Assembly (NCBI RefSeq): GCF_020740795.1
Contig: NC_067294.1
Coordinates: 18,419,001 to 18,483,000, forward strand
Length of the DNA stretch: 64,000 nt
Direction: 5' to 3'
Source: Apus apus
Lineage: Eukaryota > Chordata > Aves > Apodiformes > Apodidae
This document shows positions 3,001 to 42,300 of the stretch, in pieces. Each line of letters starts with the position of its first letter. Position 1 is the stretch's first letter. The notes under the pieces were generated by a model that worked only from the letters and a program-made list of their open reading frames with translations, was not told the origin of the DNA and ran no database searches. Position numbers and translations under genes: made by a program.

Positions 3001-6000
3001 AAGCTCATTAAACATTGCCCAGGCTGCTGAGGGAGGGGGTTAAATCACCATCCCTAAAGGTGTTTAGAAGCTGAGTAGATGTGGTGCTGAGGGACATGGC
3101 TCAGCACTGAACTTGGTAGAGTTAACTGTCAGTAGAATTGGGCTGTGGTTGGACTTGAGGATCTTAAAGGTCTTTTCCAACCCCAACAACCCTGTGTGGT
3201 TCTGTTTCTGGATGCTTCTCCCATTCCCAGTGCACAGAACCTCAAATCAGGAACCCAAATTATCAGCAGAGAGGGGCTTGCTGCAAGCTGGCCTGGGGAG
3301 CAACACGAGCCAGGCAGGCAGCAGAGACCTGCCTTGTTTTTTCAGGAGAGCAGAGCAGCCCTGGCACAGAGTGACAGTGCCCCAGGGGGCTCAGCACCCA
3401 CTGCCCCTCCAGCACAGGACCCAGTTCAGGTGTCACACACACAGCACCACAGCAGCGAGCTCAGAGGGGGGTGAGAGGGAGACCCCCCCAAGGCACTGCA
3501 GGGGCTCACTGCTGTACCACAGCCCCAGGAACCCCCAGACATCAGGACCTACCCTCCCATCTCGGACTGGGGAGTGGTTTTGGTGATGACAATGGTTTTG
3601 CCCAGCTTGGATTCCAGGTCCACTTTGTAGTCGCGGTGCCGCAGCAGTTCCCTCTTGACGGGCTGGGCTGGTTTGCCTGAAGCACAAGCAGAAAAACAAA
3701 GTGTTTGTCAGAGAAGGTCCAGCTCGAGGTGTTGGGCTTCATGTTGCCCTTGATGAAGAGGGGCCTGCTGGGAGCTTGGGAACTGCCTGATTCATGCAGA
3801 AATGGCAATTGTTTATTTTTTTTAACCAGTAAAGATTTAATTTCCTCCTCACTGTCTCCTGCTTCCTCTTAGCACCAGGTGGGCCTGTGAGGTATCTCCA
3901 GCTCTGGTGTGGGTCACACTTCAAGATCTCCTTGTTTCCAGGGGCTGACTGCTCCTCTCCCACCCCAAAGAACAGGCAGAGCAAGGCACAGGTTCTCAGT
4001 AATTACTTTTTGCCAAAAAAAAACCCAAACAACTCATTCAGTGGCAAGCACAGGGAAAAGGATGGGACCAAGCCAGCCTTCCAGTGCTGCTTCCCTGTGG
4101 GATTTCACTCCCTGGAGGCCAGCAGAGCCTGCCTGCAGCCTGCACACCACGCACCATCTTTCTTCTCTCTCTCTTCCGTGAGCCTCTTCTCTGCCAGCTT
4201 CTCATACTCATCCTTGTCCCACTTCCGGCGGAAGTCCAGGTTCTTGGTCTGAGAGGGAAACAAAGTGTTTGATAGTATGAAAACATTCATGGTACAAGTG
4301 GAGCAGCTCAGAGGGGAGCCAGGGGAAAGAGGTGGAATCACTTGGCCAGCAAGGCCACAGCAGTAAAATTGGGGCACCACATTATATCCCCCTGTCCTCT
4401 GTTTTTTTAATTGAAGGATTAAGGAAGCAGCTTGAGGGAATAACCCTCAGCAGGTCTGAGGCCACCTCTTCTAGAAGGATCTCGAAGCACTGAGAAAAGT
4501 AATGACTTTATCTTCACAGCACCTGATGGGCTCACCCAGGCTTTGGCTGCAAGGACAGACACAAAGGGCAGATACAGGGACTTCTGACAAGGGAGATCCC
4601 ACCTGGACCACTGTGGCCAGTTCTGGAACCCCCAACACAAGAAGGACATGGAGCTCCAGGAGTGAGTCCAGAGGAGGCCACAGAGACGATGGGAGAGCTG
4701 GAGCAGCTCTGCTCTGGAGCCAGGCTGGGGGAGTTGGGGTGTTCAGCCTGGAGAAGAGAAGGCTCCAGGGAGACCTTAGAGCAGCTTCCAGTGCCTGAAG
4801 GGGCTGCAGGAAAGCTGGGGAGGGGCTTGGGACAGGGAGGGATGAGACAAGGGGGAAGGGTTTTCAGCTGGAAGAGGGAAGATTTAGGTTGGACATTAGG
4901 AGGAAATTCTTCACTATGAGAATGGTGAGACCCTGGCCCAGGTTGCCCAGGGAAGCTGTGGCTGCCCCATCCCTGGCAGTGTTGAAGGGCAGGTTGGATG
5001 GGGCTTGGAGCAACCTGGGCTGGTGGGAGGTGTCCCTGCCCATGCAGGGGTTGGATCTGGATGATCATTAAGGTCTCTTCCAACCCAAACCATTCCAAGA
5101 AAAGCTCTGAAGGCCCCTCTGGCACAGAGGGACATGCCAGGGAAGCACAGGCATGAAACTCAGGATGAGCTGTCCTGCTCCCACAGCCAGGCTGGGAAGG
5201 GAGGGAACCTCCCTGAGTCACCCCCTGAGGCCCTGCTCTGCAAGGACAGGATAAGCTGCAGGAGGAGAAGCTGGATTCAGGTGAAGCTGGTGCTGAAGAA
5301 CACAAAGGCTGTTGTTTTCTGTTTCTCTCTCCTCACTAGGGCTGAGAGTGGGAGGGACTGGACAAGATTCCCTCTTCCATCCACAGCCACCCTCACCAGC
5401 CCAGCAGCACCCAGGGCCCTGCACCCCGCGTGGCTCAGACACCTCAGACACTTTTATCTTCTCCAGAAGACAAGTCTGGTTTGCTCAGAAAGCTGCATTT
5501 CACCTCCCAAGAGCCTCTCAGTTTCATATTAAAAGAAGAGAACAAAAGGACAGATGCATTTTAAAACACCTCCAGGAAAGCAGGACTCCCCCATCCCCCA
5601 CTGCCTTCTCCACTCACCCAAATCAAGAATCCAATCACAATCCAAGGGAAATAAATCCCATTTGAAGCTAGAGCAGCAGCAGAGTCATTTAATGTTTTCT
5701 CCCCTGGCAATCCTTCAAATGGAACCAACAACTACTGATAGGAATGAAAATGCCTTAGGGAGGTGTAGAAAAATTCTCATTTATTCCCAGAGCTTCTTAA
5801 GCACTTTAAGCATGTCATAACAGGGCTTATTAACCAGCCTGAGCCACAGAAAAGAAAATACCACCCAGTGTAAATGAACGTTTGGGGGTGTTTTCCAGCC
5901 TCTCCTGCACCCCAGCACATCATCACACACCACGGCTGGTGGGAGCCCGGGGGGAGGTGATTTACTTGCTGCTTCACTCTCCTTTTGTAATAAAAAGGAA

Positions 6001-7403: not shown

Positions 7404-10400
7404 ATGCTGGGGCCGCGCGGCGCCGCCGGGGCCTGGCGGGGCCTGCGGGGCCTGCTCTGCCCGCGGGCCCGGGCGGCGGGCGGGGCCGGCGGCTGGCGGG
7501 GCCCGCCGCTCAAGACGCCGAAGGTAACGGCGGGGAGCGGGACCCAGGGGTGACCGGGCGTCGTTTTCGTCCCGTCCCCCCCCCCCCCCCCCCCGCGCGC
7601 CGCTGATCCCCGCTTTCCGCCCCGGGCCAGGGCACGCGCGATCATCCCCCCGCCCACGTGGTGCTCCGCGACCGGCTCCTCGCCGCCGTGGTGGCCGTCT
7701 TCAAGCGGCACGGGGCGGCCGCCATCGACACCCCCGCGCTGGAGCTGCAGGTGAAGCGGCCGGACCCCCCTTCCCTCCCACCGGGGCCGTGGGACCCCCC
7801 CCCACCCCCCCGCTCCCCGGGGGGCTTTGGGTGCTGTGGGACCCCCCTCTGCGGGCTGGGGGCGTTGTGGGGTCCCCCCCCACTCCTGCGGGACTGAGGA
7901 GCGCCCCGTTTCCCCTGGGGGGGATCCTTCTTGGGGCCCCATTTTGTGGGGGGATGGGGACATGGACCCCCCTTCTGCCCTGGTTGGGAGGGGACTCAAG
8001 GGAGGAGTTTGTCACCCCCAGCCTGTGGGGCTGAGGAGGCTGGGCTGACCCCCCCCGGGGGTCCCTGCCCCCCAGAGCTGCCCGGGGTCCCTCACCAGCC
8101 TCTGGCCCCTCCCCAGGAGACGCTGATGGGGAAGTACGGGGAGGAGGTGAAGCTCATCTACCAGCTGCAGGACCAGGGCGGGGAGCTGCTGGCCCTGCGC
8201 TACGACCTGACTGTATCCTGCCTGTGGGGACATCTCGGGGACACCCTGCAGTCCTGGCCACCCCCACCTCTGAGGTCACCCTGCCCTGCCCCACCCGCAG
8301 GTCCTGTCGTGCTGGTGGGACCCACCGGACACCCTGGCTGGTCTGGTTGTCATTGGGGTGACCCCACAGACCACCCCATGGCCAGGACAGCAGCAGAACA
8401 CTGTGGGTGCCCCAGTATGCCCCGCTGTACTGGTTTTGCCTCCTCCCAGTTACAGTCCCCACCTCAGTCCTGCCCATCCCACCTCCGTGGTGCCTCAGGA
8501 GTTGTTCAGAGAGCAGCAGTGTTTGCCACAGGGGTCCATCCTTGGCCTTCTCCCCCTGCAGAACACTCCCCCATAGCATCTCCAGGTCTGTGCTGCGTGT
8601 TAGATCCTCTCTGGTGGCACCATAAGAGGGTGAGGTGACTGAGTGAAAGTCTGTGTGCCTGAGGTGTCGACCTCCTGTGGTTCAGAAGAACGAGATGGAG
8701 CTGACCTGGTGCTAGAGGAGCTCAGCGTGGGTTGTACTCCCTGCAGATCAGGGAGGAGCAGCAGCGGTGAAGGGGGATGAGGAGCTTTGAGGTCCAGCTT
8801 TCCACAGCTCAGGGGTCTCCCCGTTCCCGTCCTTAACCCCACCCTCCCAGGTGCCCTTCGCTCGCTATCTGGCCATGAACAAGATCACCAACATGAAGCG
8901 CTACCACGTCGCCAAGGTCTACAGGAGGGACAACCCGGCCACCAGCAGGGGCCGCTACCGGGAGTTCTACCAGTGTGTGCGTGCGGGGGCTGCGGGGGCA
9001 GCTGGAGCTGGAGCCCCTCAGCCACGCCAACAGCTTCTGCCACTTCTTCACCCCCAGGACTTTGACATCGCTGGGCAGTTCGACCCCATGATTCCCGACG
9101 CCGAGTGCCTGAAGATCGTGCACGAGATCCTGAGCGACCTGCAGCTGGGGGACTTCCTCATTAAGGTGTGACTGGGGCTGGGGGGGTCTTCATATCTCGG
9201 TGCCTGCCCTTCCCAGGGGTTGAGGGAAGGCAGGAGGACACGCCAACGGTCTCGAGGGAGCAGTGGCAGCGGGGGGGTCTCCCCTGAGCTCCCTGTGCCT
9301 CTGCCCAGGTCAACGACCGACGGATCCTGAAGGGTGTGTTTGCTGCTTGTGGCATCCCAGAGAGCAAGTTCATCACCACCTGCTCCACGGTGGACAAGCT
9401 GGACAAGGCAAGGGTGGTGCTCATGGGGAGGTGGCTTCCAGGCTGGGGGGTGCCATGGCTGTTCCCACCATAATGAAGGTCTCAGCAGTGAAGCTGCTGG
9501 TGTTTGTAAAGGATTCAGGGAGCTCTTGGTCTGGGTAAGAGTAAAGCCAGGAGTTTCCAGTGGCATCTGATAGAAATTCCTGTGAGAAAGGAAGGTTGGA
9601 GTGTGGTGGGGATTGGTCTCTTCTCTAGTAGCAAGCAATGGAAGAAGTGGCCTCAAGTTGCATCTCAGGAGGTTTAGATTGGATATTAGAAGAAACTTCT
9701 TCACAGAAAGGCTCTTAAACACTGCACAGGCTGCCCAGGGAGGGGGTTGAATCACCATCCCTGGAGGAGTTCAGAAGCTGAGTAGATCTGGTGCTGACAG
9801 ACATGGTTCAGCACTGGACTTGGCAGAGTTGGGTTAATGGTTGGTAGAGTTGGGTTATGGTTGGACTTCATGTTCTTAAAGGTCTTTTCCAACCAGGACA
9901 ATTCCCAGATGGTTAGGGGTGGCAGGTTGGTGCCTGCCTGCACATCTAGTGGACACGTGGGCTGGTAGAGACACTGGGTGAGGAGAGTGTCCTGAGCAGT
10001 GTTCAGAGGTTCTCGTGTCCCCTCGCAGATGCCGTGGGAAGAGGTGAGGAGCGAGATGGTGGGAGAGAAGGGGCTGTCTCCTGAGGCTGCAGATCGCATC
10101 GGGGAGTACGTGCAGCTGCAGGGTGAGCAGGGGGTGCAGCCCTGGGCCTGCTCCTGCCAGCCCAGCACGGCCAGCCCGGGGGTGCCCGGCCCTGGCAGCC
10201 CTGAGGCAGCGGCTCCTTCCCACAGGCGGCCTGGGCCTGGTGGAGCGGCTGCTGCAGGACCCCAAGCTGTCCCAGAACAAGCTGGCCAAGGAGGGGCTGG
10301 GGGACATGAAGCTGCTGTTCGAGTACCTGGCGCTGTTTGGCATCACGGGGAAGGTGAGCAGGGCCGGGGGCCGGGGCGGGCGCTGCCCCCCTGGCCGGGC

Positions 10401-12269
10401 AGCCCGGGCCCCCTGCGAGCGCCCGGGGGGTGACGGGGCTTCCCTGCTGCCCCCCAGATCTCCTTCGACCTGAGCCTGGCGCGGGGCCTGGACTATTACA
10501 CGGGGGTGATCTTTGAGGCTGTGCTGCTGCAGCAGGAGAACCAGCACGTGGAGGAGCCCGTCAGCATGGGGAGCGTGGCCGGGGGCGGCCGCTACGACGG
10601 GCTGGTGGGGATGTTTGATCCCAAGGGACGGAAGGTGCCCTGCGTGGGGGTCAGCATCGGGATCGAGCGGATCTTCTCCATCCTGGAGCAGAGAGTGAAG
10701 GTGGGTGCTGCAGGCAGGGCTTGGTGTGGGGAAGGAAGGGCTGTAGGATGTCATCTCTTTGCTGCAGAGCTCCACGGTGTTGGAGGGGAAGGGGTTTTGC
10801 AAGCGAGGTGGGTCCTCTCCTGCCTGAATCCCAGGGTTCACAGAAGACATCCCCTGTCTCTTTCAGCCTGTAGGATCTGTCAGGGGCAGCCAAGTGCAGC
10901 ATTCCCTAGCAGATGCCAAGGAGGTGTCCAAGATGAGCCCTGAGCTCTAGTCCTGGCTCTGCAATTTGTGCCCCAGTCACTTGTCTGAAGATTCCTGTCC
11001 TGGGGACTGTGAAATGATGGATTTGTTAACAGCTCAGGCACCCGCTCTGCCACGAGCACCCCAGGGAAGCCTGTCAGGAAGTCCATTGCTCTGAGTCTGA
11101 ACCAAATGCATATCAAGTGAGGCTGCTGCAACATGTTTTTACTTGAAGAATCAAAGGAGACAGGGGAAAGCTGTCCTGATCCCCCCTGGGAGGGAGGAAG
11201 GCAGGCCATGGTCCTCCAGGAACAGCAGCAGATGATGCAGCAGCGTGTCAGAGCACAGATCCTCTGGGGGGCTCATTAAACTCCCCCAGGCTCTGGTCTG
11301 GGCACCCTTTTTGCTGCTGAAAGGCTGACTTCCCTCAGTCACCTTCACGGAATGGTGGTGGCTGGCTGGTTTTGGGGAGATTAGAAGGTGAGGAGAGATG
11401 AGCTGCAGTTGTGGGTCCCCTCAGGGCAGGTCACTCCCACAAGTGTGTCCAACCCCACAGGCTTCTGGGGAGAAAGTTCGGACGACTGAGACAGAGGTGC
11501 TGGTGGCTACACCTCAGAAACACTTGCTGGCTGCAAGACTGAAGCTCATCTCTGAGCTGTGGGATGCAGGGATCAAGGTAAAGATGTGGGCTTGGTACAG
11601 GGGAGGGAGGGAATATCTGAAGGGAGCTGTAGCACAGCACGGCCAACCCCAGAAGCTGCCTGTCTCTTCAAGACCTGAGCCTGTTGGAGATCCCTCAGGC
11701 AGAGAAGAAGAGCCAAGAGCACTAAAGGCAGCTGCTTGGTGCAGGAGTCATGAGGCAGAGCTTTCTGTGGAGTTTTGGCTCTGGCTGTTTTGCTCCAGGA
11801 TCTTTGCATTAATGATTGTCTGTCTCCCCTCCCTCCCAGGCAGAGATGCTGTACAAGAAGGACCCGAAGCTGCTGAAGCAGCTGCAATATTGTGAGGACA
11901 CGGGGATCCCCCTCGCTGCCATTGTTGGGGAGCAGGAGCTGATGGACGGGGTGGTCAAGCTGCGAGACGTCGCAACGAGAGAGGAGGTGAGAATGCCTTT
12001 TTCCAGCAGGTTTCCAAAGCACTTCCGAAATCTAGGGATTCCTGAAAGGCCCTGGGTTTTCCCTCAGAGATGGTGTTCCTCTGGGGAGCAGGGATCTGCT
12101 GGGTACCTGCTCCAGAAAGCCAACACAGACTGCGTCGGTGTCCACAGCAAGTCCATGAGGGACCAGATTGAGCCCCTCTCTGCTGCCACCTCCTCCTCTC
12201 ACTTGCTTTTAGGTTGACATCCCGAGGGAAAAGCTGATTGATGAGATCAGAAGGCGTCTGGAGCCCTAG
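7404..12269 (+). CDS. HARS2: Mitochondrial histidyl-tRNA synthetase
   Basis: This class IIa synthetase attaches histidine to mitochondrial tRNA-His. Twelve coding exons (7404-7523, 7631-7750, 8117-8212, 8851-8976, 9058-9165, 9309-9407, 10029-10122, 10226-10353, 10458-10700, 11461-11577, 11840-11986, 12213-12269) join in frame to 484 residues; human HARS2 has 506. Exon 1 encodes an Arg-rich leader without acidic residues, consistent with mitochondrial import, joined directly to the conserved KTPKGTRD. The WHEP-type helices of the cytosolic enzyme are absent. Motif 2 is [19 protein letters not shown] across exons 4 and 5. The histidine motif RGLDYYTG is at residues 306-313, GGGRYDGL and motif 3 [10 protein letters not shown] follow, and the anticodon-binding domain ends the protein. 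Intron 3 is U12-type and intron 6 has a GC donor. Exons 7-9 with their introns are nearly identical to HARS1. Confidence 0.95.
8213..8850 (+). other. U12-type (minor spliceosome) GT-AG intron of HARS2
   Basis: The donor reads GTATCCTG at 8213-8220. A branch-site match TCCTTAAC lies at 8830-8837, about 14 bases before the terminal AG, with no long polypyrimidine tract. This fits the U12 consensus at both ends. The intron splits RYDLT from VPFARYL, as in HARS1. Confidence 0.85.
9628..9905 (+). repeat. CR1 LINE 3' fragment (HARS2 intron 6)
   Basis: The strings GGCCTCAAGTTGCATCTCAG, ATATTAGAAGAAACTTCTTC and the tail TTAAAGGTCTTTTCCAACC mark an old CR1 3' end. Confidence 0.8.
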
Positions 12270-14460: not shown

Positions 14461-26657
<12,197 letters not shown>

Positions 26658-27440: not shown

Positions 27441-30400
27441 ATGGAGGCGGAGGTGGGCGCCGTCGGGGCGCGAGGGGGCCCGGGGTGCGGGGGGCGAGGA
27501 GGACCCGGGGTGCGGGGCCCTTCCACCAGCGGGGAGCCCGGAGCGGGGGGTCTCGGGGAGCCCCCGGGGAGGTCGGGCGGGGACCGGAGCCCCGGGGCCA
27601 GTGGCGGAGCTCCCCATTCCAGCCCTGTTCTCATCCCACCCGTTTCCCCCCGGTGCCCCGGGGGGTGATGAGCCCCGTTGGCCCCTGCGGGTCCTGCCCC
27701 TCGGGAGCCCCGGGAGCTCCGAGCCCCGCACCCCCCGTGCTGCGGGACAAGGCGAGCAGCGGTGGTGGGGTCTCGGTGCGGTGGGGCTGGACTTGCTGCA
27801 GCCTCTCAGCAGAGGTTTCCCCTTTGCGGGTCCCGGACTTCATCTCGGGGTGTTTGGAAAGCGGGAGGTGGGAAGGTGCCCGCCCTCGGGGATGCACGAG
27901 GTGCAGCCGGGCCGCATTTTAGCCCGGGGCTGGAGGGCTTTAATCCCACCCGCTGTTCCGGTTTCTGAGGCCCTAATGGGACCAGGCAGTACTTGATGAG
28001 CTGATGATGTTGCCACGTGGGTGGTGTCTCCAGCCTCCCCCAGTGTCCACAGAAGCCTGAGGAGATGCTGGTAGAAGCAAGTTGGCTCTTCTGGTGGGAC
28101 CTGATGTGGTGGGACACCCTGGCTTTGTGCTGCACCCCCCTTGCAGCACCAGCCCACTGCTGCTGTGTCTTTGCTTCCAAAGCCCTTGCAGGGACCTGCA
28201 GGGGAGCTGGTGGTGACCTCCTGCTCTGCCAAAGTTGCTGCAGTTAGTATCGTGGGGCAGTCTGTGAGCAGGGTAGTGGGAGTGCTTTGGATGTGCAGTG
28301 TTGGAAGGCTCCTCAGGTTTCCTCAGGGCTCAGCCTTTGTTTCTGCACCTGCTGGCCTGTGCTGAGGCCTTGCAGGTGCTTCATGAGGCTGGTTATTCCT
28401 GAAGCTGGGAGGCTGGAAACTCTTTGGCCAGATGAGCACCAACGTCATCTCCCTCCTCAGACGTGGACCGACAGCATCAACCAGGCCAATAAGATGGCCC
28501 TCCTGGCCTGGGCAAAAGAAACTGGCATCCAGCTGGTGCAGATCAACGGGCAGAGGAGATACGGTGGCCCCCCCCCAGGTAGGTGAGGGGAGCATCTTGG
28601 CACCCTGGTCCCCTGGGAGCACGGCCTCTCAGGTGCCCGGGGCTGAGGTCTGCCATGACATCCTTGTTAGGAAGCTCAGGAAGAGTGGGATTGATGAATG
28701 GACAGTGGGATGGATGGAGTGTGACAGAGCTCAGAGGGTGGTGATCAATGGATCAGGGTCGAGTTGGAGGCCAGAAACCAGTGATGTACCCCAGGGATCA
28801 ATACTTGGTCTGGTCTTGTTCATTGTGTTCACCAATAGCCTGGATGAGGGGACAGAGTGTGACCTCAACAAGTTTGCTGATGATACCAGCCTGGGAGGGG
28901 TGGTGACACTCAGAGGCCTGTGCTGCCATTCAGTGTGATCTGGACGAGCTGGAGAGCTGGGCAGAGAAGACCTCATGAGGTTCAATAAGAGCAAGTGTAG
29001 GGTCCTGCACCTGGGAAGAAAGAACCCCAAGCACATCAATACACATTAGGGGTGGACCTGCTGGAAAGTAGTTCAGAGGAGCAGGATCTGGCAGTCCTGA
29101 TAGACAGCAAATGATCCATGAGCCAGAAATGTGCCCTTGCTGCCAAGAAGGTCAGTGGAATCCTGGGGTGCATAAAGAAGAGCGTGGCCAGTAGGTCCAG
29201 GGAGGTCATTCTCCCCCTCTGCTCTGCCCTGGTGAGGCCACAGCTGGAGAACTGGGACCAGTTCTGGGCTCCACAGTTCAAGAGAGACAGGGAACTGCTG
29301 GAGAGTCCAGAGGAGGGTGATGAGGATGCCTGGGGGCTTGGAACGTCTCTCTGATGAGGAAAGGCTGAGAGAGCTGGGGCTGTTCAGCCTGGAGAAGAGA
29401 AAGGTGAGGGGAGACCTTATCAATGTATGTAAGTATCTGAGGGTGGGTGCAGGGAGGATGGAGACAGGCTCTTCTCAGTAGTTTTCAGTGACAGGATGAG
29501 GGGCAGCGGGTACAAGCTGGAATATGGGAAGTTCCATTGAAATAGGAGGAAGAACTTACTTACAGTGGGGGTGACAGAGCCCTGGGACAGCCTGCCCAGG
29601 GAGCTGTGGAGTCTCCATCTCTGGAGATGCTCAGGACCTGCCCTGCTGCAGCCCGTGGGGTGTGCTGCGGGTGATCCCGGTGTCGCAGGGGGTTGGACGA
29701 GATGGTCTCCAGAGGTCCCTCCGGCAGTCCTGGGGCTCCAGGGTGGGTCTCACCGCGTCGCTCTCTGCCTGCAGACTGGGTGGGCGACCCCCCGCCGGCC
29801 GGCACGGAGGTGTTCATCGGGAAGCTGCCGCAGGACGTGTACGAGAACGTGCTGATCCCGCTCTTCCAGAGCGTGGGCAGGCTCTACGAGTTCCGCCTGA
29901 TGATGACCTTCAGCGGCCTCAACCGCGGCTTCGCCTACGCCAAGTACGGCGACCGGCGCGGCGCCCGCGAGGCCATCGCGGCCTTCCACAACTTCCCGCT
30001 GCGGGAGGGCTGCCCCATCGTGGTCTGCAGGAGCACCGAGAAGTGCGAGCTGAGCCTGGGCGGCCTGGACGCCTCGCTGGGCGCGCAGGAGCTGGAGGCC
30101 ACGCTGCGCAGGGTCACCCCGGGGGTCCTCAGCGTCACCCTGCGCGCCAGCCCCGGCCAGAAGCAGGGCCAGGTGGCTCTGCTGAAGTACAGCTCGCACC
30201 AGGCTGCGGCCATGGCCAAGAAGACCCTGATGGAAGGTGAGCAGGAGGCTGGGGGTGACGCTTGGGCTGGTCTTCCCGGTGTCTGTAAGGTCAGAACTTC
30301 CCCACCTCCCAGAGCAGCTGTGAAGTGGCCTCAGCCTGGAGGTGCCTTTTGCCCTCTCCCCGGGTCCCCTGGGGGGTGGGTGTCCTCCCTGGGGCTGATC

Positions 30401-31634
30401 CTGGGCAGGCTTCATCAGACCAGGTGGTGCTGGGGTTAAGGAGCTGCTGGAGGTCTTCAGGCACCTGCCTGCTCAGGAGGAGCATCACCACTGCCAGTCC
30501 CAGGCATCCAGAGCTTTTCCCAAGTTACTGAACTCTCCTGATGGAGATGCCCTCCCCCCCAGTGCCCTGTCCCATGATAGCACTGCCCTCCCATGGGACA
30601 CAGATTCCAGACATCCAGCTGGAACATCCAGAGTCCTGATTTTTACCCATTCCTGCCCCAGCTGAGAAGTGTTTCTGGTGTCTTTGTTCCTGTCCCTGAA
30701 GGCAGGTTGCTCCTCACGTCCCTGGGGCCTCCTGGCCCCCAAGCCCACTTTGGTAGCCAGAGGAGGTGGAGGAGCAGTGGGAGGGCTGGGAGGGAGATCC
30801 CATGTGGTTCCCATGCGGTGGGTCAGTGCCAGCCCACCCGTGGTGGTCGCAGCACCAGGTGCTGGGGGACAACTGGAGGTGGGATGGGATGACACTGGAG
30901 GGGCTGGTGAGTGGGCGTCTCCTGCCACTGCTGCTGGTCTGTCCTAGGGAACACGAGGCTCAGTGGGGCACAGCTGAAGGTGGACTGGCTGAGCCACGAC
31001 CTGAAGCAGAAGCTGCAGTCCTGCCAGGAGAAGCCATCGTCCAGCCGGGCGCAAGGGGGCAGGCACCTGGGGGTCCCCAAGCAGGCACCCCTGTCCCCTG
31101 TGCTGCACAACGCCGTGGACCACCTCAACACCCTGTGCAGGAGGCGGTGCCTGGGCACCCCCCTGTTCCTCACCAAGTGCATCCAGGCCACCCCCAACGG
31201 GTGGCTGCGTTTCTGGTGCCAGGTGGTGATCCCAGGGTGCCCCGTGCCCTTCAGTGGGTTTGCTTGGGTCCAGCAGGATGGGCCAGGCAGGAGTGGGCAC
31301 GAGGAGGCCAAGGTGGTGGTGGCACTGCAGGTTCTCCGGGTGCTGGGTGAGTGCTGCGGGGTGGGGCTGAGCCCCTGCCTCTCCAAGGTCTGGGAGCATC
31401 TCCTGGGAATGTGGAGCTGTGGTGCTTCTGGTTGGGGGGGGGGCGGAAACTCAGCCTGGCAGGCAGGGCTGAAACACCATGACCCCCCTGCCCAGTGATC
31501 CTGGTTGCTCTGAACTCGGGGTGGGATTCCTGGTTGGAAGCAGAGGACACGAGGGGAGGGGGTTTTGGGGTGCTGCTCCCCAGCACTGCAGAGCCTGACG
31601 CTTTCTTCCCCACGCAGGGGGCCAGCAGACGTAG
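27441..31634 (+). CDS. DND1: Dead end protein 1, germ-cell RNA-binding protein
   Basis: DND1 binds U-rich 3' UTR elements, protects germ-cell mRNAs from microRNA repression and is needed for germ-cell survival. Exons 27441-27452, 28461-28578, 29775-30236, 30948-31346 and 31618-31634 join to 335 residues; human has 353. RRM1 has RNP2 [13 protein letters not shown] (from residue 55) and RNP1 [10 protein letters not shown] degenerate RRM2 follows ([11 protein letters not shown] to [15 protein letters not shown]). The C-terminal double-stranded-RNA-binding fold covers [18 protein letters not shown] and [17 protein letters not shown]. The first exon (MEAE) was picked for its Kozak context, GTGGGC donor and phase, and is the least certain part. 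The last exon adds only GQQT before the stop. Poly(A) signal ATTAAA is at 32226-32231. Confidence 0.92.
28640..29640 (+). repeat. CR1 LINE fragment with decayed ORF2 end (DND1 intron 2)
   Basis: About 1 kb of CR1 in gene orientation. The translated reverse-transcriptase end is visible in pieces ([12 protein letters not shown], then [12 protein letters not shown] with the FADD box). The frame is broken downstream, so the copy is dead and older than the one at 32868. Confidence 0.9.
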
Positions 31635-32429: not shown

Positions 32430-34380
32430 GGCCCCACGGTCCCACTGTGGTGCCTTTTGGGGGCCCCAGGCTCCTCTGAGCACCTCTTGATGAGCTCTCG
32501 GCGACCTCCAAGAGCTTTTGGGTGCATCTCTGGGCCATGGCAGCACTTTTCTGCCCTTCTCTTGGCCTCCAAGTGCCTTTCAGCTTTCCCAGTGGTCTAC
32601 GAGTGGTTTCTGCTGAGCACCATGGGTTTCCAAGTGTGTTTTGGGGCACACCAGGATGGCTCTTTGAGTACAGAGCTCTGCTAGTCCCTTCTGTTCAGAG
32701 GACCTTGCTCTTAGTCCCTGGGGGCCTCCAGAGGTGTCATTGTGCTCACCAGGGTCCACAGTGCATTTTGGGGCACCCGAGAGAACTCCCATGTGTCTGT
32801 CTGCACTGCCCAGGTGCCTCCAGGAGCCTTGTGGTGCAACCTCAGGGGACTCAGGCGTCTTCCCCATGCTCAATGGGGCAGAATCTAGTTGGAGGCCTGT
32901 GACTAGTGGAGTCCCTCAGGGGTCGGTACTGGGACCGGTGTTGTTCAATATCTTCATCAACGACCTGGATGAGGGAACAGAATGTACCCTCAGCAAGTTT
33001 GCTGATGACACCAAGCTGGGAGGAGTGGCTGACACACCAGAAGGCTGTGCTGCCATTCAGAGAGACTTAGACAGGCTGGAGACTTGGGCGGGGAAAAACC
33101 TGATGAAGTTTAACAAGAGCAAGTGTAGAGTTTTGCATTTGGGGAAGAAAAACGCCATGCACCAGTACAGGTTGGGGGCTGAGCTGCTGGAGAGCAGTGT
33201 AGGTGAAAGGGACCTGGGGGTCATGGTAGACAGGAGGATGACCATGAGTCAGCAGTGTGCCCTTGTGGCTAAGAAGGCCAGTGGCATCCTGGGGTGTATT
33301 AGAAAGGGTGTGGTTAGTAGGTCAAGAGAGGTTCTCCTCCCCCTCTATTCTGCATTGGTGAGGCCACATCTGGAATATTGTGTCCAGTTCTGGGCCCCTC
33401 AGTTCAAGAAGGACAGGGAAGTGCTTGAAAGAGTCCAGCGCAGAGCCACAAGGATGATTAAGGGAGTGGAACATCTCCCTTATGAGGAAAGGCTGAAGGA
33501 GCTGGGTCTCTTTAGTTTGGAGAAAAGGAGACTGAGGGGTGACCTCATCAATGTTTACAAATATGTAAAGGGTGAGTGTCAAGACGATGGAGTTAAGCTT
33601 TTTTCGGTGAAGACCAGTGATAGGACAAGGAGTAATGGATACAAGTTGGAGCATAGGAGGTTTAAGATGAATATCAGGAAAAATTTTTTTACTGTAAGAG
33701 TGACAGAGCACTGGAACAGGCTGCCCAGAGAGGTTGTGGAGTCTCCTTCGCTGGAGACATTCAAAACCCGCCTGGACGCCTTCCTGTGTGATGTGCTCTG
33801 GGTGACCCTGCTCTGGCAGGGGGGGTTGGACTAGATGATCTTTCGAGGTCCCTTCCAACCCCTAGGATTCTATGATTCTATGATTCTATGATTCAATACC
33901 AGCCAGTGCCTTTGGAAATGTCCCAAAGGCTTCCCAGAGGATGTGGGATCTGGAGGATATGGCCCATGGGGCTCCAAGTCCATTTGTTGTGCCTCAGGTG
34001 GCCCCACGTGCCTGTCTCTGCTTCCCGGAGGTCCACCAGTACCTTCTGATGTGGAGCTGGACCCTCCAGCTCCCTTTGGCAACACCCAAGTGACATCTTT
34101 GTTCCTTCTGGACATACTCAGGAGCAATACTCCAAGAGCCTTTTGGTGCCCCCTCAGGTGCCTTTTTGCCCTCCCTGTCCATCTGGACATCCCCAAGAGC
34201 TTCTGAGCAACTCCTGATGTCCTCACAGTGCCTCTCCTCATGCTGCAGGGGCTCCAACGTGCCTTTTCTTGTGACACCCTCCTCTGGGACCTCCGTGGGC
34301 CCTTCTGTGCTGCCCAAAGGTCTAGTAGTGCCTTTTGAGGCACCTCAAGGGCTGTGCTGGGCCTGTGGACACATCCCAGG
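32430..34380. repeat. Degenerate tandem-like repeat block, split by a CR1
   Basis: On both sides of the CR1 insertion (32868-33895) the DNA repeats loose motifs such as GTGCCTTTTGGGGC, GGCACCTC, CTCCAAGAGC and AGGTGCC at irregular spacing. It looks like an old, heavily mutated minisatellite. I could not fix a unit length by eye. Confidence 0.5.
32868..33895 (+). mobile_element. Young 5'-truncated CR1 LINE with long open ORF2 end
   Basis: This CR1 keeps one uninterrupted reading frame up to the stop at 33834, covering about 320 residues of the C-terminal half of ORF2. It includes the reverse-transcriptase motifs [19 protein letters not shown] and [12 protein letters not shown] (the active-site FADD). 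The C-terminal region has [17 protein letters not shown] and [18 protein letters not shown]. The 3' end has the CR1 hallmark of tandem 8-mers (ATTCTATG repeated about three times). The 5' part of ORF2 and ORF1 are missing, so the copy cannot move on its own. Confidence 0.95.
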
Positions 34381-35675: not shown

Positions 35676-38346
35676 TCAGTCACTGTCGCTGTCGCTGTCA
35701 CCGTCGCTCCCTGCTGCCACCTCTGGCTCAGCCTCATCCCGCAGGTCGGCGAAGAAGTCCTCCCCGCTGCCTAGCGCCTTGCTGCTGAGGGCCCGCAGCG
35801 GCCCCCCCTTCTTCTTCTTCTTCCTGTAGTCATCCACCACCAGCCCCCGCAGGCTGGAGATGTCCCAGAACTTCACCTTCTGGTCGTGGGCACAGCTGGC
35901 CAGGAGCTGCCCGCCTGGGGCCACCGCCAGCTGCTCGATGGGCTCCCCCAGGTGCTGCCCCACGCAGCCCAGCACCCGGTTGGGCAGGATGTTCACGGCC
36001 CTGGGGAGATGGGGACACCCCACTGAGCACCTTGTGGGGAGGTGGTGTCCACGGTGGACCTGCCTGGTCTGCCACGAGACCACCTGTCTGCACCAGCACA
36101 GGCTTGGTGCCTTCCTTTCCTGCCCTTCTTCTGAACCCAGGCTGATCTCATCCCACCTCATCCCATCCTATTACACCCCATCCCATCCCAAGCCCTCCCC
36201 ACCCCACTCCACCTCCTCACCATCCCACCTTAGCCCACACCATCCCCATCCCAGTCCTCTCCAACCCATTATACCCCCTTCCCTAACCCCATCCCACCCC
36301 CGCCCCATTCCCATTCCATCCCAACCCCTTCTCCACACCATCCCACCCCCTCCTCATCCCACCCCATTCCCTCCCCCATTCCATCCCACCCCCTTCCTCA
36401 CTCCACCCCACTCTATCCCACCCTCTCCCCATTCCCATCCCATCCCACCCCCTCCTCATCCCATCCCACCCCCTCCTCATCTCACTCCACTCCCTCCCCA
36501 ACTCCATCCCACCCCCTCCTCACTCCATCCTACCCCCTCCCCAACTCCATCCCATCCCCTCCTCATCCCACCCCACTCCCTCCCCCATTCTATCCCACCC
36601 CCTTCCCCACTCCACCCCACTCTATCCCACCCCCTCCCCATTCCCATCCCATCTCACCCCCCTCCTCATCCCATCCCACCCCCTCCTCATATCAGCCCAC
36701 CCCCTCCCCAACTCCATCCCACCCCCTGCCTCACCCCACTCCCTCCCCATTACCCACTCCATCTCACCCCCTCCCCATTCCCATTCCATCCCACCCCCTC
36801 CTCATCCCACCCCCCCCACTCCCTCCCCATTCCCACCCCACCCCACCCCACCCCTGACCTGATGACTCCATCCAGGGACCCCACGCACACGATGCTGTCC
36901 GTGATGGGCACCATGCAGTCAACAGACTCTGCCCGCAGAGCGAAGCGGTCGCTGGCGGCCCCAAACCCATCCCAGTTGAAGAGGTAGATGGTGCCTTCGC
37001 TGGAGCCACACGCCACCTTCCTCCCCCTCTGGGCAGGACAGAGGACAGTCAGGCAGAGGCAGGAGCAGCCCAGGGCGTGGGGAGGGATGGGCAGGACCAG
37101 CGCCGACCTTCAGCAGCACCACAGACGTCAGGTCCCCGTTCTGCGGCTCCGAGAGCAGCTCAAAGCGTCGCCTCTTCACGTTGAAGACGCCCAAGGTGCC
37201 GTCGCCGCTGCCGGGGCCCAAAGGGGCAGGTCGTGAGGACGGGACGTGGCACAGGGCACTTCCTGAGCTCCAGGGGAAGATTCCAGGCAGGCACAGGGGG
37301 AGCCTGACCCCAGGGCCCCCGGTACCTGGCGGTCAGCAGGATCTTCCCGTTCCCGTCCACGGCCATGGCGCTGATGTACTCCTCCTGCTGACGGGCCTCC
37401 AGGACGGCTTCCCTCCTGCGCAGGTCCCACAGCTTCAGCGCCCCAGCATCGTCCCCCGTGGCAAAGAGGTGCGGGTTGATGGGCAGCACGCAGTTGAGGG
37501 CCGAGCTGTGGAGACCCCAGCCCCAGCACAGTCACGGCTCCCGCCACAGGCCAGTGGCTGCCAGACCTCCCAGCCGGGGGCTCGGTGGCCCAGTCAGGGA
37601 GGGAAGTGGCCACCTGGGCCCAGCCCACCCTACCTGTGGGCTTTGGGGAAGCGCGTCTCCAGCCGTCCCTCCTCCACCGTCAGAACGTGGACAGCCTTGT
37701 CCTTGGAGACGGTGAAGAGCTCTGGGGATCCCCCTCAGCACCCCCGGCCGGTGCACGTCCCCTCCCCTTACCCCCCCCCACGTCCCCGCACTCACTCTGC
37801 CCGTCCTGGGAGAAGGCGACGTCCCGGCACGACTTGAGGTGATGGCCCGAGGACCAAAGCTGCCGGTTCTCCCCCTCGGTGCAGGAGTACGAGTACCTGC
37901 CGGAGGCGGCTGGGCTGCCCGGGACCGCGGGGGAGCCCCGACGGCAGCGGCCGAGGGTGCCCGTCCCGGGACCCCCCTCGGTGCTTCCTGCCCCGGGACC
38001 CCCCCCTCGGTGCTTCCTGCCCCGGGACCCCCTCTCGGTGCTTGCTGCCCCGGGCCCCCCCTCCTCGGTGCTTCCTGCCCCCGGGACCCCCGCCCCGCCC
38101 CCGCTCACAGGTAAACGTCGCCGTCCACGTCCCCCGCCGCCAGCAGCGGCCGGGCCGGGTGCAGGGCGATGGCGTTGGCCGCCGCCTCGAAGCAGATGTC
38201 CTCCGGGGTGTCCCGCAGGCGCGGGGCCCTGCCCGGGCCCGGCTCGGCGCAGCCCTGGGGAGAGCGGGGCGGTGGGGCCGGGGTGCGGGGCCGGGCAGGG
38301 CGGGCCCCCCTCACGCGTCCCCGCTCACCTCCCCCGGCGCCGCCAT
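35676..38346 (-). CDS. WDR55: WDR55, nucleolar WD-repeat protein
   Basis: WDR55 is a nucleolar beta-propeller protein needed for rRNA processing and cell-cycle progression. Exons in transcript order are 38329-38346, 38109-38254, 37796-37896, 37634-37721, 37326-37505, 37108-37207, 36859-37028 and 35676-36000. All phases match and give 375 residues; human has 383. The N-terminus carries [22 protein letters not shown] and the propeller entry [20 protein letters not shown] blades follow (for example [35 protein letters not shown] and [15 protein letters not shown]). The tail has a basic stretch ([18 protein letters not shown]) and an acidic Asp/Ser end. Donors of exons 6 and 7 read GTCGGC and GTCAGG, weak at position +3. 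Intron 7 is filled by a satellite. The start codon lies 137 bp from a vault RNA gene on the other strand. Confidence 0.95.
36160..36855. repeat. CCCATCC-type low-complexity satellite in WDR55 intron 7
   Basis: Nearly 700 bp built from CCCATCC, CCACCCC, TCCTCAT and CCATTCC blocks, with higher-order repeats of roughly 60-120 bp such as CACCCCCTCCTCATCCCA. It fills most of the intron. On the transcribed strand it is G/A-rich (GGGATGGG). Confidence 0.9.
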
Positions 38347-38380: not shown

Positions 38381-38440
38381 TTTGTATAGCCCCGCCCTCT
38401 CGTTTACATACATCATCATCTCATTTGCATAGCCCCGCCC
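38381..38440. promoter_or_regulatory. Paired TTTG(T/C)ATAGCCCCGCCC elements between WDR55 and vault RNA
   Basis: A 17 bp element occurs at 38381-38397 and again at 38424-38440 with one difference. The second copy includes the perfect octamer ATTTGCAT (38423-38430), an Oct-1 type site, about 53 bp before the vault RNA. Each copy ends in a GC box. Both lie between the divergent WDR55 and vault RNA starts, so they may serve either or both. Function is inferred. Confidence 0.7.
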
Positions 38441-38482: not shown

Positions 38483-38577
38483 GGGCCGGCTCTAGCCCAG
38501 CGGTTCCTTCGGTCTGTCCATATTCACGTTCCTCTGCCCGTCAGGGGTTCGATCCCGCGGGCACTCCCGGCCCATTT
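38483..38577 (+). ncRNA. Vault RNA gene (RNA polymerase III, type 2 promoter)
   Basis: Vault RNAs are short Pol III transcripts, about 90-140 nt, bound in part to the major vault particle. The 5' sequence GGCCGGCTCTAGCCCAGCGG parallels human vtRNA1-1 (GGCTGGCTTTAGCTCAGCGG). Box A is TAGCCCAGCGG at 38493-38503 and box B GGTTCGATCCC at 38546-38556, followed by CGCGGGC as in human. The ends GGGCCGG (38483-38489) and CCGGCCC (38567-38573) form a perfect 7 bp closing stem. TTTT at 38575-38578 terminates transcription. Size is about 95 nt (human 98). The sequence between the boxes has diverged, which is normal for the family. An octamer and GC boxes lie upstream. A tRNA is unlikely because there is no cloverleaf. 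In mammals the main vault RNA cluster lies near ZMAT2 and the protocadherins, so this placement differs. Confidence 0.88.
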
Positions 38578-39308
38578 TGCCGGGAATCCCTCCCCGGCCC
38601 CCGCCCACCTCTCTCCGTTTTGCCTCGTTTTTCACTGCTCCGCAGCGGGAGCCCCGACGCGCGCACCAAGTTACCCCACGGGGAACACCGGAGCCACCTC
38701 CCCCCGCCTCCCCGGGGGCATCTCGGCCCCTTCCAAGGGCTGGAGCTGCCACGGCCGCCCAGAGCTCCTGCCCAGGGCCCCTCTAGCTCCTGCCCAGGGT
38801 CCTGGCCCAGCCAGACCCCCTCCCATGCCACGTGCAGCCCCCCCAGAGCCCCCCAGTGCCAGAGCTTATGCAGGGGACACGGTTGCATATCTACCCCTTC
38901 CCCCCCTCGAGGCACAGGGTGCTCAGCTGGGATTATTTCCCCCAAACAGGTTTATTCAGGGCTCAACAGGGGCTGCTGCCCCACCCCAAGAGGCTCCCCC
39001 CACAAGCACCCAGAGCCAGGGCTCACCCCGTGAACCCCATGTGGGCTAGTGGGGAGCAGGAGTCCTGGCACCCCTGCAGAGCCAGGCAGGGCCCCCACAA
39101 ACAGATCCTCAGGCAAATTTCCTGTCATTTTATTACCACTACAAGATTTACACACAACAGGCTATACAAGAAGCAGAGGGAGAGCCTCAGCACAGCCCAG
39201 GGCTCCAGGCTGGGGGCAGCAGAGGAGGCTGCAGGGAGCAGGAGGGCAGAGCAGCCAGCTCTGGGAGGGCAGCACCTGATGGAGCTGGAGGACAAGACAC
39301 TGGAGGCA
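38578..39308. other. Spacer and IK 3' UTR
   Basis: The IK transcript ends near 39110, after the minus-strand AATAAA at 39129-39134. From 38579 to about 39100 the DNA is intergenic, GC-rich at first. No further RNA gene was found. A second minus-strand AATAAA-like site lies near 38948. Confidence 0.6.
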
Positions 39309-42300
39309 TCAGTACTTGGGCCGTTTCACCTCAACCCTGGAAGAGACAGAGGGGCAGGAGGGAGGTGAGGATGGGGACCTGCAGCCCTGTCCCCCTCCCA
39401 CCCAGCTCAGAAGGGAGGTGGGAGAGGAATCCCACCAGCTTTGCCAAGCTGGGCAAGGAGCACTCTGAGGGGACCAAATGTCCTCTCTCCTTCCAGCCCT
39501 ACTGTCCAGAGCTGGCAGGGTGGTCTCTGCCCCCTGCAGCACCAGGGAGAGGTGGCAGGAGACAGCCAGGCCCCAGCACTGCCCCCAGAGCAGACAACTT
39601 TACTGACCCATCAGCCTCCAACTTCTTCCTCTTCTCGATGATCTGCAGAGAAAGCACAAACTCCTGTTACCCTCAGGGGAGCTGGCTGCCCATGACAGCA
39701 GCAGCAGGGTTGTAGGGTGCAAGGGGAGAGCAGGAGCCAGGCCAGAGGGAGCCAAGGGGAGCTAAAGCCATTCACAAGCTGCCCAAGGTCTGGAGAAGCT
39801 TGCCCTGCTCCACCATGACCACCAAGGACCGTTTGTTTTCACCCTCCCCCCTAGTCCATCCCCTTCTGCTGGGGGCTCATGGCCATCTCACCCTGCCAGG
39901 ACAATTCCCCAACTCTGAGGGTCAGAAAACAGAGCTGCTAAACATTCCTTGCCCCCTCCAAGCCCCCCTGGATGGCTCAGAGCTGCTGATGCAGAGTCTG
40001 GAGCAAAAAGCCCCTGCTGGGGACTGGTCTTGGGGCAGCAGCTCCAGCTGCCTCTGCAGTTTTGAAGGCCCAAATATTTGGCCAACCCTCTGCCAGGACA
40101 TACAGAGGTCAGGGTTGAAAAGGACCTGTGGAGACCATCTGGTCAAATCCCCCTGCCAGAGCAGGATCACCTACAGCAGATCCCACAGGAACATGTTCCA
40201 GGTGTGTTTGGAATGTCTCCAGAGAAGGAGACTCCACAACCTCCCTGGGCAGCCTGTCCCTGGGCTCTGTCACCCTCACAGGAAAGTTGTTTTTCCTTAT
40301 GTTCAGGTTGACCCTCCTGTGCTCCAGCTTGTGCCCACTGCCCCTTGTCCTGTCACTGGGCACTGCTGAAGAGACTGGCCCATCCTCCTGACACCCCCCT
40401 GTAGATAAAGTGTTGAGATCCCTCCTCAGGCTCCTCCTCTGTCATGGGCTGGGCCGAAGAGCCCAGAGCAGGTCAGGGAGGGAGGAGCAGGGGGGAGCAG
40501 CACAGCCAGGCCCAGCCCGCCCGGGCACACACCGCGCTGATCTTCTTCCACTGCCGGTCCAGCTCCGCCTTGTCGTTGGTCTCCTTGAAGCGACGGGTTT
40601 TGCGTCCCTCTGACATCTTGATCCCGTACTGGAAAGCAGCCCTGGGAAGGAGACAGAGCTCAGTGCTGCCAGGGGATCCACGGCTGCTCTGCCCCAGAGC
40701 CAGCTCGGGCCCCTGAGAGCAGTGGCAGGGGTCCTTGACAATGGCACTAAGAGCAAGGACAAGCCACCAGGCCCAGCACCCCCAGCTCTTCGTCCTCACC
40801 AGGGGTTCTCGATGTTAGCTCTCCCAGGAGCTGGTCTGGCCAGGCCTGTCACCCCCACCCAGAACACTTGCTCAGCCCCCCCAAGGCTGCACTCACTTGG
40901 GCAGAGCCTCCTTGTTGTTCATGTACTCGCTGTACTCCTCCTGGGTGTCGAAGTCCCAGCGGCCCAGAGGTCCCTTCTTGTTACCCTGCAGGGAAAGAAC
41001 GACTCAGAAGTGGTGAGAATGTTGAGCAGCTCCTCAGCAGATGCTTCTCACACAGCCCCAAGCACCCAGCCAAGATCTCTGTCTCCCACAGGCCCCAGTT
41101 CAATGGGCTTGAGCACCAAGTCTGGCCTGAGCTCTGAGATCCCTTCCCCAGGAAGCCCCTAACAGGGGTTTCTGTGGAAGAGGGAGCCAAGAAGGACTAG
41201 CACAATTCTCCAGCACCTCAAGTGCCAGAGTCACACAGTTGCTCCCTGGGATGATAGATCCTACCCAGACACCCAGAGCAGACCAGCAAAGCCCAAAGCA
41301 CACCCAACACCCAGCTCCAGGGCACCCAACCCCTCTGCACCAGCCTGCTCCTCTCCAGTGGGATCCTCTCAGCCTGCACTGATGCCCAGTTCACCAGCTG
41401 CTCCTACCAGCTGGTGATGGATCATACCTGATCCATTTTGCTGTAGTCCACCTCTTCATCACTGTCCACAGCCATGTCATCCATTCTGTAAAGGAAAGAA
41501 AAGCAAGGAAAGGATTTGGAGCAGGTCCATGGTCCATCTCTCACGGCCTCAGACCAAATGCCCTCCGTTCTTGGACCAGAAAGAAGCTTCTCCAACTGCA
41601 GGCCTTCCAGCTGAGATGGACCACAAGGGCATCCAAAATACTAAGATGACTCTGCAGGCTGAAAGCTGCTCCTCTGCTGCCCAGGAACTGCTCTGCGGCC
41701 AGAGCTCAAGGAGCACATCAACTGGACCCAACAGACCCCCAGCCACCTCGGCCTCCCCCTGGCACTAAGGGGCAGCAGACTCCAGGTAACCCCTTTTAGC
41801 AGAGACCAGGTAAGAAAAGCCCAGGCCTGCCAGAACCAAGGACTCGGGGAGCATCTCAACAGCAGGTTGCAAGCCTGGACAAAGCCAAGCATGGTCCTCC
41901 CAGCAAGCACTGGGCTGATGTCCCAGTCCCAGCAGCCCCTCAGCACAGCCCACTCCAACCCCCTGGCTGCCTCCTTACGTGGCAGGGTAGCACTCGGCGT
42001 AGCTGTTGGACATGCCAAAGAAGTCCCCCAGCTGCTTCTTGTCTTCTGGCTTCTTCAAAGTGACAGCAGTCAAGGAAAGCAACACCTCGTGGCTTTGCAG
42101 CTGAGGGCTGGGCACTGCCAGCCATGGAACCATCTCATGAGTGGTGGGGGTCTCTAGAGACCATCTAGTCCAACCCCCTGCCAGAGCAGGGTCACCTACA
42201 GTAGATCCCACAGGAAGATGTCCAGACAGGTTTGGGATGTCTCCAGAGAAGGAGACTCCACAACCTTCCTGGGCAGCCTGTCCCACAGCTCTGTCACCCT

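Follow-up and report, generated by a model that had tools for sequence, protein, structure and literature searches.

Vault RNAs are transcribed by Pol III through internal boxes A and B, with the help of upstream elements (PMC7058938). In mammals, the vtRNA1 genes are located between ZMAT2 and the protocadherin cluster (PMC7058938; PMC10491885; PMC11185573), and a eutherian vtRNA2 locus is reported between TGFBI and SMAD5 (PMC7058938; PMC10491885; both sources print TGFB1). Vault RNA genes are already known in birds by number: a survey of 48 bird genomes recorded a median of zero, with two in chicken, one of them confirmed by RNA-seq, and the patchiness in birds of families such as vault RNA was blamed on missing data (PMC4378963). 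In the parts of the bird and chicken vault RNA literature consulted, there is no statement about a vault RNA slot between WDR55 and IK; Stadler 2009 (doi 10.1093/molbev/msp112) lies outside this coverage. Vault-pattern scans of genome_contigs and viral_contigs returned zero matches; these are prokaryote and virus collections, with no bearing on birds.

The locus described here lies in a 64-kb window (the whole stretch of DNA that was analysed, C14:18419001–18483000) on a 19.4-Mb contig of Apus apus, the genome of which comprises 1.10 Gb in 110 contigs; genome size, CR1 content and gene order are in keeping with a bird. The window holds a vault RNA gene that is real and ordinary in kind, in a slot other than that used in mammals. 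The gene resembles mammalian vtRNA1 and the Rfam family RF00006 in covariance score, length, boxes A and B, terminal stem and terminator, and it shares the gene block of vtRNA1. Unlike mammalian vtRNA1, it occupies the slot between IK and WDR55, beyond WDR55, DND1, HARS and ZMAT2; a single intact copy was found, head-to-head with WDR55; and the mammalian upstream elements are not seen by simple pattern. As in eutherian vtRNA2, the gene is situated away from the ZMAT2–protocadherin slot, but its neighbor genes are different.

Identity and Structure of the Vault RNA Gene

The vault RNA gene at window positions 38483–38577 (plus strand; 95 nt when counted to where the model match stops) aligns with the RF00006 Vault covariance model over its full 99 positions (1–99) at 61.5 bits, with E 1.9e-11 in a search space of 64 kb. 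The gathering score, which is the curated cut-off, is 34 bits. No other Rfam family exceeded its gathering score in the 64-kb window, and a permissive Rfam scan (E ≤ 5) yielded 13 rows in the window, the sole vault row being that at 38483–38577. Box A (TAGCCCAGCGG, 38493–38503) and box B (GGTTCGATCCC, 38546–38556) are of the internal type 2 Pol III kind. The 5′ arm of the terminal stem (GGGCCGG, 38483–38489) is the perfect complement of the 3′ arm (CCGGCCC, 38567–38573), and all seven pairs of this stem, which closes the 5′ and 3′ ends of the RNA, are formed; directly after the 3′ arm is TTTT (38575–38578), a likely Pol III terminator. Standard pairs are present in 18 of the 19 model pairs of RF00006, and the first 21 bases show two differences from the Rfam consensus. 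The single-strand fold has an energy of −40.4 kcal/mol (z −3.21), equalled or bettered in 1 of 200 shuffles.

The initial annotation had proposed a vault RNA of 95 nt with box A, box B, a perfect 7-bp stem and TTTT; its limits proved to be exact at 38483–38577 (plus strand), all four parts are located where it placed them, and the vault identity is borne out by a wide margin (61.5 versus 34 bits). The expectation that protein-based annotation would miss the gene also holds; Rfam-based annotation, however, finds it.

Because the RF00006 match is full length at 61.5 bits, the boxes, stem and terminator are intact, 18 of 19 pairs are standard and the fold is stable, and because the locus lies in the protocadherin block and a genome-wide DNA search found just the gene and two copies (see section “Copies of the Vault RNA Linked to CR1”), we regard 38483–38577 as very probably a functional vault RNA gene, and as the only intact one found in the genome.

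Genomic Neighborhood

The vault RNA gene is flanked on the left by WDR55 and on the right by IK, both on the minus strand and both identified by Pfam matches, in agreement with the neighbors that had been named for it. The coding pieces of WDR55 (35850–38346, minus strand) were recognized through Pfam PF24796, which 5 of the 10 ORFs given match; together these cover profile positions 34–67 and 95–296 of 296. A piece of the C-terminal region of IK (RED) is encoded at 40524–40649 (minus strand; PF07807, RED_C, E 3.9e-15, in 1 of the 10 ORFs given). Judged from the sequence, translation of WDR55 probably begins at a start codon at 38346–38344 on the minus strand, 137 nt from the vault RNA +1 position; the two genes are therefore head-to-head.

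Further to the left are DND1 (RRM and DSRM exons, 29810–31345, plus strand; PF00076 and PF14709), two copies of HARS, and ZMAT2 exons (3549–4254, minus strand; matches to solved ZMAT2 chains, E 1.4e-14 and 2.2e-18). Between DND1 and WDR55 there is a CR1 LINE (32668–33891) that carries a reverse transcriptase frame. The HARS copies, both recognized from exon matches to human HARS, are arranged in tandem on the plus strand (copy A, 7604–11995; copy B, 15157–25691); their identity reaches 99.4% over 722 bp, against 76–98.5% in the six other matching pieces, which suggests gene conversion between the tandem copies. The mammalian HARS1 and HARS2 genes are head-to-head.

A protocadherin (minus strand) is located outside the window, to the left of ZMAT2, with its start at approximately C14:18407256, and roughly 50 kb separate the vault RNA gene from the protocadherin exon that was identified, both being on the same contig. 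The ZMAT2–protocadherin interval is covered by the left end of the window together with the stretches L003 and L004. Three 10-kb stretches to the left of the window gave 13 rows in the Rfam scan at E ≤ 5, none of them vault; the slot that holds the mammalian genes, between ZMAT2 and the protocadherins, thus has no vault match at E ≤ 5 across the window and the adjoining 30 kb on the left. Because ZMAT2 is at the left end of the window, with the protocadherin beyond it and no vault match there, the proposal of a slot different from that of mammals holds for this genome. The possibility of another vault RNA nearby was rejected, neither scan giving one at E ≤ 5 in these stretches.

Upstream Region and Proposed Mechanism

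The region between the vault RNA +1 position and the WDR55 start codon contains, within 38381–38440, two exact copies of TTTGYATAGCCCCGCCC (at 38381 and 38424) and an octamer, ATTTGCAT (38423–38430), with a putative role. The TTTGYATAGCCCCGCCC copies are 43 nt apart, and two or more matches at up to three mismatches occur in 7 of 100 shuffles; the octamer is not unusual for the whole window, with at least one octamer in 60 of 100 shuffles. No CRE-, TRE- or TATA-like element was identified near the vault RNA +1 upstream by simple pattern, which diverged forms could escape; by this means a single TATA was located, at −98, and a single CRE half-site, at +56. This lack of close upstream elements of the mammalian type, by simple pattern, is a point against a functional vault RNA gene.

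WDR55 is a ribosome synthesis protein. The 137-nt upstream region is likely to be shared with the divergent WDR55 gene, and the two genes may be under shared control. Pol III would be recruited via the internal boxes A and B (TFIIIC and TFIIIB), would start at G38483 and would stop at the four T residues from 38575, giving an RNA of approximately 95–97 nt that is predicted to fold into a vault RNA stem with a variable center. This RNA would have the usual vault RNA roles in the vault particle and in p62/autophagy; the greater part of vault RNA is reported not to be in the particle, and an action of human vtRNA1-1 on p62 is described (PMC7058938).

Copies of the Vault RNA Linked to CR1

A genome-wide DNA search with a 115-nt query gave three places from three candidates, namely the gene and two copies, one on contig C36 and one on contig C3. 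A genome-wide Rfam search, in which 49 of 62,538 candidates were scored, gave at least two matches over the cut-off: the gene and the decayed C36 copy.

The C36 copy (C36:56201744) matches over 93 nt at 80%, has flanks unlike those of the gene, and has an Rfam score of 38.8 bits, above the cut-off of 34. It differs from the gene at 20 of 95 positions. Nine of these differences are at CpG positions of the gene, all C-to-T or G-to-A, with 8 of the 9 CpGs lost; changes thus affect 9 of 18 CpG positions and 11 of the remaining 77 (Fisher P 0.002), the pattern that a dead copy of the gene should show. The non-CpG differences (7 of 32 positions in the variable loop versus 4 of 45) show no significant excess in the loop (Fisher P 0.18), and for this reason selection on the vault RNA ends versus the loop, as judged from differences between gene and copy, was dropped from consideration. 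CR1 sequence starts 4 nt past the C36 copy, which is fused in sense orientation to a 5′-truncated CR1 LINE, copy and CR1 together spanning L006:4944–6636. A search with this CR1 stretch found at least 39 non-self places (40 of 2,979 candidates scored), five of these 39 reaching back to L006:5043; in all five, the ones that were fetched, the sequence continues 5′ as CR1, where the C36 copy has vault RNA. A functional second vault gene on C36 was rejected in favor of a decayed full-length copy beside CR1.

The C3 copy (C3:111816694; within L009:770–1541) is identical to vault RNA nucleotides 1–36 (36 nt) and is situated at the 5′-truncated end of an inverted CR1 (antisense), with one extra T between the two. 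This CR1 (L009:775–1499) shares 95% identity across 726 bp with the element between DND1 and WDR55 (window positions 33161–33886). The 7-bp sequence TCACTGA is present on both outer sides of the insertion (L009:770–776 and 1535–1541), and the final two bases of the vault piece overlap this repeat.

Two routes, template switching and twin priming, have been described for chimeras of LINE-1 with small RNAs (PMC13174262). The C36 copy looks like a template-switch chimera with CR1, since a sense fusion fits template switching, and the C3 copy looks like a twin priming product with CR1, since an antisense fusion fits twin priming; the C36 junction of vault RNA and CR1 may instead represent two separate insertions side by side. 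As in the mammalian small-RNA/LINE-1 chimeras, there are both sense (template switching) and antisense (twin priming) fusions, whereas here CR1 replaces LINE-1 and the partner is vault RNA; the words vault, vtRNA and CR1 are absent from the main text of the mammalian study (PMC13174262). Both the C36 and the C3 copies begin exactly at G38483. Because reverse transcription needs RNA, this common starting point suggests that the vault RNA was made in the germline and that its 5′ end is at 38483. The CR1-linked vault copies number two only, too few for a rate.

Vault Particle and Assembly Completeness

The failure to find MVP in the assembly is a further point against a functional vault gene. The MVP shoulder domain (PF11978) has no match in the genome, and 14 control genomes are also without a match; a search of the assembly with human MVP likewise gave no match, and the positive control, human HARS, gave 21 pieces in the same assembly. 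PPP4C is near MVP on human 16p11.2, and its orthologue would be expected at ≥95% identity. The search for PPP4C gave 27 matches, none above 77% identity, and thus no recognizable orthologue. Since PPP4C, a neighbor of MVP in human, is absent too, the likeliest explanation for the absence of both genes is that a block or a small chromosome is missing from the assembly, and on this ground a vault RNA without vaults was rejected. MVP is annotated in chicken (PMC13064311). Against a missing block, the main text of a paper on genes missing in birds contains no mention of MAPK3, TAOK2, ALDOA, KCTD13, Hsa16, 16p11 or MVP (PMC4290089).

Alternative Explanations

The sequence at 38483–38577 could be a dead retrocopy of a vault gene that resides elsewhere, for example in an assembly gap, given that copies of the vault RNA are present in the genome and that some blocks seem to be absent from the assembly. 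However, its boxes, stem and terminator are intact, it is whole where the two other copies are decayed or partial, and it is located in a block that often holds the vault RNA genes of jawed vertebrates (PMC10491885); we therefore consider a retrocopy very unlikely. Descent from a tRNA, either as a tRNA pseudogene or as a tRNA-derived repeat with type 2 Pol III boxes, would account for boxes A and B, which are of the tRNA kind, but is scarcely credible: ARAGORN identified no tRNA gene in the 64-kb window, the match to the vault model extends across all 99 of its positions, and no more than three places in the genome came up in the DNA search. RF00006, ARAGORN and the genome-wide DNA search together largely rule out this origin.

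The proximity of the likely WDR55 start codon (137 nt), in a CpG-rich region, raises the question of whether what is conserved here belongs chiefly to the WDR55 promoter, or to an antisense leader, and does not represent a separate gene. WDR55 and the RF00006 match occupy opposite strands, and the abrupt start of the CR1-linked copies at 38483 is what copies of an RNA would show, so a role confined to promoter or leader appears exceedingly improbable.

Implications

With a vault RNA gene as the preferred reading of 38483–38577, we tentatively put forward a broader scenario: the only vault gene of this bird lineage may possibly have moved within the protocadherin block to a site where it shares a divergent Pol II/Pol III promoter region with WDR55, and CR1 LINEs may on repeated occasions have taken up its RNA as a partner in template switching and twin priming. 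With an intact gene now defined by exact coordinates and by its slot, the corresponding place can be inspected in every bird. From genome sequence alone, the two copies joined to CR1 supply evidence for the 5′ end of the vault RNA, and they suggest that CR1, like mammalian LINE-1, forms chimeras with small RNAs.
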